Positions 3,774-6,819 of a stretch of 64,000 nt of DNA are shown here, piece by piece. The notes under the pieces were generated by a model. That model was not told the origin of the DNA, made no database searches, and saw only the letters and a program-made list of their open reading frames with translations. The DNA is from Cyanobium sp. WAJ14-Wanaka. Lineage in GTDB: Bacteria; Cyanobacteriota; Cyanobacteriia; PCC-6307; Cyanobiaceae. Every line of letters starts with the position of its first letter. Position 1 is the first letter of the stretch. The DNA lies in NCBI RefSeq assembly GCF_024345375.1, contig NZ_JAGQAZ010000002.1, forward strand, positions 496,001 through 560,000. The letters run 5' to 3'. The position numbers and the translations under genes were made by a program.

Positions 3774-4313
3774 CTAGAGCTCCAGCAAGCCAGGCGGTGG
3801 AGTGATTGCCACCCAGCCGGCCTTGATCTCCACCTGGGGCACGATCGCCTCCACAAAGGGCACCAGGATCTTGCGCACGCCCAGGTCGATTTCCAGCAGA
3901 TCGTTGCCGGCGTGGATCAGGTCGCTGATGGTGCCAATCTTTTCGCCCTCGAGCCGCACCTCAAGCCCCACCAGATCGAGCAGGTGAAATTCCCCCTCGG
4001 CCAGCTGGGGGCGATCGTTGGCGGGCACCAGGAGCTGCTCCCCCACCAGGGCTTCAGCGGCTTCTCGGCTCTCCACCCCGGCCAATCGCACCACAAAAAG
4101 CTCCTTGCCCGGCAGCTGTCTGCCGCTGATTAGCTCGATGCTGCGCGGGGGATCCTGGCGGCGTTGCAACCAGCGTTGACCCGCCTCGGTGAAGCGCTGG
4201 GAAAAATCGCTCAGGGGCAAAATGCGCAGCTCACCCTTGAGCCCTTGGGCCGCCACCAGCTTGCCCACCACCATCAACTCTTCGTTCAAGTCGGCACTTT
4301 GACCGTTTTCCAT
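3774..4313 (-). CDS. rimM: Ribosome maturation factor RimM
   Basis: RimM binds ribosomal protein S19 and assists 30S head maturation. The 179-residue product shows the N-terminal RimM barrel ([17 protein letters not shown]) and a C-terminal PRC barrel ([11 protein letters not shown]...[15 protein letters not shown]). The ATG at 4313 is preferred to an upstream in-frame extension (to 4397), which has no family similarity and would run into ndhS on the other strand. It lies between rnc upstream and manC downstream on the same strand, and 52 bp from the divergent ndhS start, so the two may share a small bidirectional promoter region. Confidence 0.95.
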
Positions 4314-4365
4314 CGCCAGCCGGCCTTGGTTAAGTCGATAATGGCAACACGTCCCCTTGGCTTCC

Positions 4366-4545
4366 ATGGCCGCTCTGCCGATCCTTCCCGGTTCCACGGT
4401 GGTGGTGCGCGATGGCCGCTCGATTTACAACGGCTACAAGGGCTTTGTGCAGCGGATCAGCGGCAGCCGGGCCGCGGTGCTGTTTGAGGGTGGCAACTGG
4501 GACAAGCTGGTGACCCTGCCGCTCAAGACCCTCGAGCAGGCCTGA
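4366..4545 (+). CDS. ndhS: NAD(P)H-quinone oxidoreductase subunit S (NdhS)
   Basis: NdhS is the small SH3-like subunit of cyanobacterial NDH-1 that forms part of the ferredoxin docking site for cyclic electron flow. The product is 59 residues from the ATG at 4366 (an upstream TTG at 4357 is possible). It keeps the family core: ILPGSTVVV near the start, then GFVQRI, and the diagnostic [15 protein letters not shown]. The assignment rests on that motif and on length. Its last 23 bp overlap the 3' end of rnc on the opposite strand. Confidence 0.9.
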
Positions 4546-5290
4546 GCCCAGGGCCGCCTTTGCGGATCGATGCGATGGCCACCCGGGCCGCGTCCTGTTC
4601 GGCGGCGCGCCTAGAGGGCCCGGATCCCTCGCCCCTTTGCTCGCCATTGATCGCCACCGTGCAGCGAAACCGTTTTGGATCGGCATGCACCTGGCTTTGT
4701 TCGCTGCAGCTGTAGCTGGGCAAACCTGCGGCCTGGGCCTGGCTCCATTCCTGTAGGGCCGATTTCCAGTTGTGTAGGTCGGGATCGGCCAGGAGCTCCC
4801 GGCTTGCTGCCTGCCAGTGGGGCGTGAGCCATTGGTGCACGGGTTGTAGCCCGCCACCGTCTCTGCCGCCCCAGGCCTCATAGAGGGCACCGATCAGGGC
4901 TTCTGCACACTCGGCCCGCACGGTGGCTTTACCCGCCAGGTCGCCGCTGGCCATCGGCCCCAGCTGCAGCACCGCATCAATGCCGCAGCGCTCCCCCAGC
5001 TCGGCCAGCCAGCGGTCACTGACCAGTTGGGCCCGTAGGGCTGAGCAGCGCCCCACGCTCAGCTCGCCATGCTGCTGCTGCAGAAAATCCGAGGCCGCCA
5101 GCCGCAGCACCGCATCGCCTAAAAATTCCAACCGCTCGTGGTTTTGGACCCTGCCGGTGGAGCTGTGGGTCAGGGCCTCCTCCACCGGCGCCAGGGCCTG
5201 ATCCGCAGCGCCGGGCCCGCCAGGGGCGAGGGGATCGACCCCAAGCGTCTGCAGAAAGGCAACCAGTTGCTGGCGGCGATCTGGGTTCAT
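4523..5290 (-). CDS. rnc: Ribonuclease III
   Basis: RNase III cleaves double-stranded RNA, processing rRNA precursors and structured mRNAs. The 255-residue product has the signature HERLEFLGDAVL at residues 51-62 and a C-terminal double-stranded RNA-binding domain from about residue 165 (WKSALQEWSQA ... RRAAEQDAA). In the second active-site motif the usual A-D-x-x-E-A reads A-E-C-A-E-A, so the catalytic Asp (E. coli D114) appears as Glu. The start codon lies about 8 nt after the end of the rnpB RNA on the same strand, leaving no room for a terminator or separate promoter, so rnc is probably expressed from the rnpB transcript. Confidence 0.95.
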   Translation of the reverse strand: MNPDRRQQLVAFLQTLGVDPLAPGGPGAADQALAPVEEALTHSSTGRVQNHERLEFLGDAVLRLAASDFLQQQHGELSVGRCSALRAQLVSDRWLAELGERCGIDAVLQLGPMASGDLAGKATVRAECAEALIGALYEAWGGRDGGGLQPVHQWLTPHWQAASRELLADPDLHNWKSALQEWSQAQAAGLPSYSCSEQSQVHADPKRFRCTVAINGEQRGEGSGPSRRAAEQDAARVAIASIRKGGPGLRPARGS

Positions 5291-5297
5291 TTAATGG

Positions 5298-5716
5298 GGT
5301 GAAAGCAGGACATAAGCCGGGTTCTGTTCACCTTGGTCCGTGGCAAAAGCCTTGCACCTTGGGGGTGATCATCTGTCTAGGACCACCGTTGCCGGTGGCC
5401 TCAAGCGGCGCACTTTTGTCGGGACTGGTTCCATGGCCAACCGTTGTCCCTGGGCCTTGCTCCTAGCCGGGGTTTACCTAGCCAGCACCTCTCGATGCTG
5501 CTGGTGCGCTCTTACCGCACCCTTGCACCCTTACCTGTGCCACGGGTAAACCCGGGCCATCGGCGGTGTGTTTCTGTGGCACTCTCCTCACGGTCACCCG
5601 CACTGGGCGTTACCCAGCAAGCCTGGCCATTGGGGAGCCCGGACTTTCCTCAATCAAGTGTGGCTGGGCCCAAGGGCCTGCCCACCTTGATCGCGACCAC
5701 CTCGCCTGCTTTCACA
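5298..5716 (-). ncRNA. rnpB: RNase P RNA, catalytic component (cyanobacterial type A)
   Basis: This is the ribozyme that removes 5' leaders from tRNA precursors. On the minus strand the terminal P1 helix is formed by GTGAAAGCAGG (5705-5715) with CCTGCTTTCAC (5299-5309), which fixes both ends. The conserved core is present: GAGGAAAGTCCGGGC (5637-5651), GTGCCACAGAAACA (5569-5582) and ACAGAACCCGGCTTA (5313-5327). The length of about 420 nt suits cyanobacteria. The 3' end nearly touches the rnc start codon, and the 5' end is 30 bp from the divergent tRNA-Arg. Exact termini are within a few bases. Confidence 0.96.
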
Positions 5717-5719
5717 TCC

Positions 5720-5725
5720 CATAAT
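5720..5725. promoter_or_regulatory. Candidate shared -10 element between rnpB and tRNA-Arg
   Basis: The 30-bp gap between the two divergent RNA genes is GC-rich apart from one AT patch. On the plus strand it reads CATAAT (5 of 6 matches to TATAAT), well placed for tRNA-Arg; the minus strand reads CATTAT one base along (5721-5726), well placed for rnpB. I see no convincing -35 on either side. Any -35 for one gene would have to lie inside the other gene. This is a weak, composition-based call. Confidence 0.3.
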
Positions 5726-5746
5726 GCCCCTGCGGGTTTTCCGCGG

Positions 5747-5820
<74 letters not shown>

Positions 5821-5916
5821 TAATCAGCTTGCTAGCAACTCGGTAGCCACCGCTACCGGTGGTGGCTTGGCCATTTCGGTCACCGCCGCTAGCGTAAGGA
5901 GAATCGTTTCACTGCG

Positions 5917-6261
5917 ATGACCCAGCTCCACGATCTGCGCCTGCGTTTGCTGGTGCAACAGGAAAGTGAGCGGATTGCCGATAGCCAGCCCGATGAGCTC
6001 GATCTCTCGGTGGTGCAGGCCCGTTGCCTCTGTTGGTTGGCGTTGCTGGCTGAGGCCCACGAAGAACAGGCCACCGATGCTGAAAAGCGCGGGGATGTGG
6101 AGCAGGCCATGGGTTGGTTTGCCGATTCGATGCGGTTGCGCGACGTGATCAACGTGGTCACCACTATCGAGATTCCGCTGCCCGCAGCCAGTGACTTGAC
6201 CGATGACCTAGGCGATGCCTACGGCGATAACTTCCTTGATGACGGACCCCTGGCCGCCTGA
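5917..6261 (+). CDS. Conserved hypothetical protein (acidic, helical)
   Basis: I do not recognise the function. The 114-residue product is acidic, predicted helical and without a signal peptide or membrane segment, ending in an Asp-rich tail (TDDLGDAYGDNFLDDG). An AAGGAG-like sequence lies around 5896, about 15 nt before the ATG, a rather long spacing. It resembles short housekeeping hypotheticals of picocyanobacteria, but that is an impression and not a domain hit. It is followed 36 bp downstream by a second hypothetical on the same strand, so the two may be co-transcribed. Confidence 0.7.
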   Translation: MTQLHDLRLRLLVQQESERIADSQPDELDLSVVQARCLCWLALLAEAHEEQATDAEKRGDVEQAMGWFADSMRLRDVINVVTTIEIPLPAASDLTDDLGDAYGDNFLDDGPLAA

Positions 6262-6297
6262 ATGCCATGATGGTCCTTCAAAGGTCTAGGGACTGCG

Positions 6298-6819
6298 GTG
6301 CCAGAAGAGCCCTGCCAATGCCCTGATTGCCAACGGTTTTATCGGGAACACGACCGATTGATCCGTGAAAATCCCACCCTGCGCCAGCAGCAGGAGCTCA
6401 ATTGGGCTGCCTTGCAATCTTTTCGCACCCTGGCGGGCCGGGTGATGGAAGAACTCCAGAAACGCGAAGAGCTCCAAAAGCAAGACGAGAAGCAGGAAGA
6501 GCTAAATAAAGATCAGGAGGGTGCGGCCAACCTGGCCCCGGCCCCGAGGGCGATCGCTGCAGAGAGCCATCAAGCCAGCTCTGAATCGGCTGAAGATGGG
6601 CCCGACCAGCTCCAGCAGGCCATGGCTGACCTGGAAAACATCAATGCCCACCTCTTTTCGATCGAGGCCCTGATGGAGCGCATCTTTGATGTGCGGGTGC
6701 CCGAGGAAGTGGAGCAGGCCTTCCGGGAGTTGGCCGGCGAACTGGCCCCCGATCCACTCAATGCGGACCGGCTGCGCTTGAACCGCCTGCTGCACCAAAC
6801 CCCGGACCTGCCGAACTAG
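6298..6819 (+). CDS. Hypothetical protein with N-terminal Cys motif and coiled coil
   Basis: The function is unknown. The 173-residue product starts at GTG 6298, since upstream in-frame ATGs are cut off by a TAG at 6287. A Cys cluster near the N-terminus (C-Q-C-P-D-C, residues 6-11) could bind a metal. Residues about 50-75 form a strongly charged Glu/Lys/Gln coiled coil, then an Ala/Ser-rich linker, then a second helical region (LENINAHLFSIEALMERIFDV). Its stop codon overlaps the stop of glgP by 4 bp on the other strand. Confidence 0.7.
   Translation: MPEEPCQCPDCQRFYREHDRLIRENPTLRQQQELNWAALQSFRTLAGRVMEELQKREELQKQDEKQEELNKDQEGAANLAPAPRAIAAESHQASSESAEDGPDQLQQAMADLENINAHLFSIEALMERIFDVRVPEEVEQAFRELAGELAPDPLNADRLRLNRLLHQTPDLPN

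Follow-up and report, generated by a model that had tools for sequence, protein, structure and literature searches.

An rnpB-rnc junction conserved across a cyanobacterial family suggests that RNase III may be expressed partly by read-through from the RNase P RNA gene

How is the gene for ribonuclease III (rnc) expressed when its start codon lies almost directly behind the gene for RNase P RNA (rnpB)? This question is raised by a locus in the window, that is, the whole 64,000-nucleotide stretch of Cyanobium DNA analysed here, for which a preliminary description had claimed that rnpB adjoins the rnc ATG at a distance of about 8 nt. The positions obtained with cmscan, together with the open reading frame coordinates, confirmed this adjacency. 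The elements of the locus were as follows:

5721..5726, minus strand: putative -10 element of rnpB, CATTAT, within the conserved block GGCATTATGG
5298..5712, minus strand: rnpB, RNase P RNA class A (Rfam RF00010, RNaseP_bact_a; cmscan)
5301..5309, minus strand: 3' strand of the rnpB P1 helix, CCUGCUUUC, assigned by its complementarity to GAAAGCAGG at 5713-5705
5293..5301, minus strand: conserved rnpB trailer CACCCCATT, consensus CACCCCYTT (61 distinct GC-rich junctions)
5291..5293, minus strand: in-frame TAA stop codon before the rnc ATG (sequence reading)
4523..5290, minus strand: rnc, ribonuclease III, 255 amino acids, ATG start (open reading frame and NCBIfam match)

The RNA gene was identified as a class A bacterial RNase P RNA by a full-length covariance-model match (1-367) that exceeded the gathering score (237 bits versus a cut-off of 100), while the protein gene matched the NCBIfam equivalog RNaseIII, TIGR02191, with 170.7 bits versus a cut-off of 166.25. 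An 8-nt gap, CCCATTAA, separates C5299 from the rnc ATG at 5290-5288, and since the in-frame TAA at 5293-5291 touches this ATG, rnc cannot start farther upstream. A true start well inside the reading frame, which the preliminary description had named as an observation that would speak against its interpretation, is in our view very improbable. The ATG lacks a preceding Shine-Dalgarno sequence, as one might expect of a misplaced start; however, an SD-like motif is usually absent here, being found upstream of only 10 of the 43 long open reading frames of the window, and the N-terminus MNPDRRQQLVAFL aligns from residue 1 with the same-genus sequences beginning MRPERHQQLVAFL, each of which has an ATG at the same residue.

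The two genes lie side by side on the same strand with no recognisable terminator between them, as in a dicistronic unit of a stable RNA and an mRNA. A pattern scan of positions 4300-6500 yielded neither a terminator nor a promoter on the minus strand, which bears out the earlier claim of a terminator-less junction; its silence on promoters carries little weight, because the evident rnpB promoter was missed as well. Equally borne out was the claim that no clear ribosome-binding site precedes rnc, since GGAG, GAGG and AGGA occurred in none of the 14 same-genus spacers. With that of the window excluded, these spacers consist of 74-89% pyrimidines versus a mean of 50% upstream of the 43 long window open reading frames (putative starts). 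Furthermore, no Rho gene over the cut-off was found in the genome; the search returned two weak matches (22-24 bits versus 509), presumably related ATPases.

Both ends of rnpB carry conserved signals. A near-identical GGCATTATGG block is found in most family members at an equal distance from rnpB, shortly before GAAAGCAGG, and evidently represents the rnpB -10 box, so that transcription is predicted to start near 5713-5715. If it begins at 5715, the 3' strand of P1 may reach 5299. We also considered an extended P1 helix, in which the rnc leader would pair with the 5' flank (AUGGG with CCCAU), and set it aside because this flank coincides in part with the -10 box and probably lies outside the transcript. 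At the other end, positions 1, 3-6, 8 and 9 of the trailer are strongly conserved among the 61 distinct GC-rich junctions, with weaker conservation beyond; past the trailer, the intergenic region of GC-rich members shows little conservation. In the window, the rnc ATG begins two bases past the CACCCCYTT trailer. A separate observation concerns the upstream neighbour of rnpB, a divergent tRNA gene located about 35 bp away and found in the same place in most family members:

5747..5820, plus strand: tRNA gene, anticodon read as CCU (Arg), Rfam tRNA 70.4 bits

The junction was then sought in Cyanobium relatives, as the preliminary description had proposed, and it was present throughout the genus of the window (14 of 14 genomes bearing the rnpB 3' pattern). 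On a wider scale, 60 genomes were searched for rnpB and rnc, and both genes were found in 30 members of the family and in 22 genomes from other cyanobacterial families. In 29 of the 30 family genomes rnc comes immediately after rnpB, with both on one strand; the sole exception is genome G024, in which the two genes are about 8 kb apart. Outside the family, the same order within about 200 nt was seen in 7 of the 22 genomes and within 1.3 kb in 2 more, whereas in 13 the genes are unlinked. Gene order is therefore kept beyond closely related strains, as in a dicistronic unit, and since it recurs in all but one of the family genomes with both genes, it is far beyond chance: the arrangement is a conserved, family-wide one and not peculiar to this genome. 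A pattern scan with junction parsing also found it in named Prochlorococcus, Synechococcus and Cyanobium records. At loci L029, L071, L147 and L159, rnc is missing from the 1.5 kb that follow rnpB, and at L078 and L138 the distance between the genes is about 1 kb.

Across this set the rnpB-rnc spacers range from 5 to over 100 nt. Measured after CAC, those of 13 relatives within the genus are 18-32 nt long, and the 8 nt of the window is the shortest value. We considered whether such a spacer is unique and rejected this, because by a measure applicable across the family (from the end of CTGCTTT to the rnc ATG) the window has 11 nt, while L075 (Cyanobium sp. FGCU6) has 5 nt and both L087 (Synechococcus sp. 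RCC307) and L131 have 6 nt. The spacer of the window is thus short, but not the family extreme, and its length only allows for a leaderless rnc mRNA after 3' maturation of rnpB. In 42 distinct Prochlorococcus junctions (e.g., L050, L053 and L054), the spacer has a constant length of 26 nt, with GATTAT about 10 nt before the rnc ATG.

The strongest new evidence came from outside the window, in a related genus, that of genome G023 (loci L187-L195, nine genomes with an rnc match; example L026:1888-2658). In all nine genomes ATG, GTG and TTG are absent from codons 2-19 of the rnc frame, and the first conventional start codon met on going upstream from the conserved rnc N-terminus is an ATG in the 3' strand of rnpB (CTTATGTCCTGC); more TTG, GTG or ATG codons are present farther up the open frame within rnpB. 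No indel occurs between the rnpB-internal ATG and the conserved N-terminus, whereas spacers elsewhere vary freely. Purifying selection is seen in codons 11-27 (pS 0.27, pN 0.13) but not in codons 5-10 (pS 0.13, pN 0.19), so that the most likely place for translation to begin is codon 11 or a position upstream of it. All nine genomes have a GTG at codon 38/39, and a start there would leave out this conserved part. rnpB itself is intact in this genus (241.9 bits in G023) and has its own -10-like box. In this genus a protein gene thus appears to overlap a ribozyme gene, with rnc beginning inside rnpB. Formation of the mature rnpB 3' end would then destroy the rnc start instead of releasing an rnc mRNA, so that either uncut transcripts would be translated or transcription would start inside rnpB.

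Taken together, these observations led us to propose that rnpB and rnc probably form one old transcription unit, with rnc expressed at least in part by read-through from the conserved rnpB promoter. RNA polymerase would initiate at this promoter, transcribe RNase P RNA and, with no terminator in its way, proceed into rnc. The resulting dicistronic RNA would be processed, the P1 helix and the conserved CACCCCYUU trailer setting the 3' end of rnpB, and the uncut or suitably cut fraction would serve as rnc mRNA, with a very short leader from which translation would start without a Shine-Dalgarno sequence. This proposal is suggested by (i) the junction itself with no recognisable terminator and with the rnc start bounded by the TAA, the near-universal synteny in the family, the conserved rnpB -10 box and the lack of a Rho gene over the cut-off, and (ii) the genus of G023, where the nearest rnc start lies inside rnpB and codons 11-27 are constrained. 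Gene order by itself is no proof of co-transcription. The shared transcript put forward in the preliminary description is plausible and partly supported, both by the sequence and by the depth to which gene order is conserved; its further claim that each mature rnpB would be cut from an rnc mRNA has alternatives, as termination or trimming ahead of rnc might affect the majority of transcripts, or a promoter located within rnpB might serve rnc.

The latter leads to the main rival explanation, which does not exclude read-through: rnc would have a promoter of its own, situated in rnpB or the spacer, and an mRNA with little or no leader, and the adjacency would reflect genome compaction only. Since rnpB would be conserved in any case, a promoter could indeed lie within it, and GATTAT, whose distance to the rnc ATG is constant in the 42 distinct Prochlorococcus junctions, is a possible separate promoter giving a leaderless rnc mRNA, which could speak against read-through alone. 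On the other hand, the spacers in the genus of the window are pyrimidine-rich and variable in length and share no -10-like element discernible by eye, gene order has survived large shifts in genome size and base composition, and the scan, though of low sensitivity, gave no minus-strand promoter match in the window; we therefore consider this explanation rather unlikely. Published transcript data bear on both readings. The 20 most abundant transcripts listed for S. elongatus UTEX 2973 include one with a transcription start site (TSS) assigned to a ribonuclease III gene, and rnpB is unlisted there; a gene TSS was defined in that study as one lying at most 200 nt upstream of the gene or having initiating reads that overlap it (PMC6091082). 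If it belongs to the same locus, this strong TSS would fit an rnpB start that is read into rnc, and it could equally be a start within rnpB. Among the papers listed by searches of a limited collection of literature, none was recognisably concerned with co-transcription of rnpB and rnc.

The gene order might also be an old chromosomal one without functional coupling, with rnpB transcripts ending or being trimmed at the trailer and rnc mRNA arising from rare, incidental read-through. Conservation of CACCCCYUU after P1 regardless of the downstream sequence is consistent with this, as the trailer could mark a 3' end, and linkage has been lost at L029, L071, L147 and L159 and in 13 of the 22 non-family genomes. 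Yet the scan did not score an intrinsic terminator at the trailer, the search for Rho gave nothing over the cut-off, and in the genus of G023 the rnc frame extends into rnpB, which calls for an RNA that either crosses the junction or starts inside rnpB. An uncoupled order thus appears unlikely to us.

The unit proposed here resembles several known ones. In Escherichia coli, ssrS-ygfA is transcribed as a dicistronic RNA, with 6S RNA followed by a protein gene. As is proposed for rnpB-rnc, the stable RNA comes first, the transcript reads into the protein gene, and processing yields the mature RNA; the RNA and the protein are different ones, however, the protein encoded next to rnpB is an enzyme that processes RNA too, and some members have no more than 8 nt between rnpB and rnc. 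Dicistronic units such as E. coli metY-rimP-nusA and thrU-tufB join tRNAs with mRNAs. As would be the case here, the 5' portion of the transcript is a structured stable RNA that is excised from the mRNA; the tRNA ends in these units, however, are generated by RNase P and 3' nucleases. E. coli rnc-era-recO is autoregulated, RNase III cutting its own structured leader; the cyanobacterial rnc mRNA would likewise bear a structured RNA 5' of its start codon, but this leader would be RNase P RNA. Among cyanobacteria, the Synechocystis non-coding RNAs Yfr2b and Yfr2c read into downstream genes, in arrangements reported as not conserved among relatives (PMC2662882). They share with rnpB-rnc the joining of a non-coding RNA to a downstream protein gene, possibly by read-through, and differ from it in that the rnpB-rnc order is conserved among relatives.

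If read-through takes place, a single promoter and a single processing step would serve two enzymes central to RNA processing in the most abundant photosynthetic bacteria. A bolder version, which we put forward tentatively as possible rather than probable, is that RNase P RNA acts as the 5' leader of RNase III mRNA throughout picocyanobacteria and that in the genus of G023 this amounts to a fate switch between the two processing enzymes. The supply of RNase III would in that case be set by the finishing of RNase P RNA and, where rnc starts inside rnpB, a given transcript could yield RNase P RNA or serve as RNase III mRNA, but not both; such a start would render the coupling directly testable in the genus of G023. 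Read-through would also bear on how the 3' end of RNase P RNA is formed in cyanobacteria, on SD-less translation starting right behind a stable helix, and on expression studies in cyanobacteria that take rnpB as their reference transcript.

A minor observation at the same junction concerns a short reading frame that begins in rnpB:

5287..5313, minus strand: possible 8-codon mini-ORF MSCFHPIK with its ATG in rnpB, which may be due to chance

In the window the stop codon of this frame, TGA, shares bases with the rnc ATG (ATGA), and the same is seen at L024 and L108. We set this overlap down to chance, because it is not conserved.
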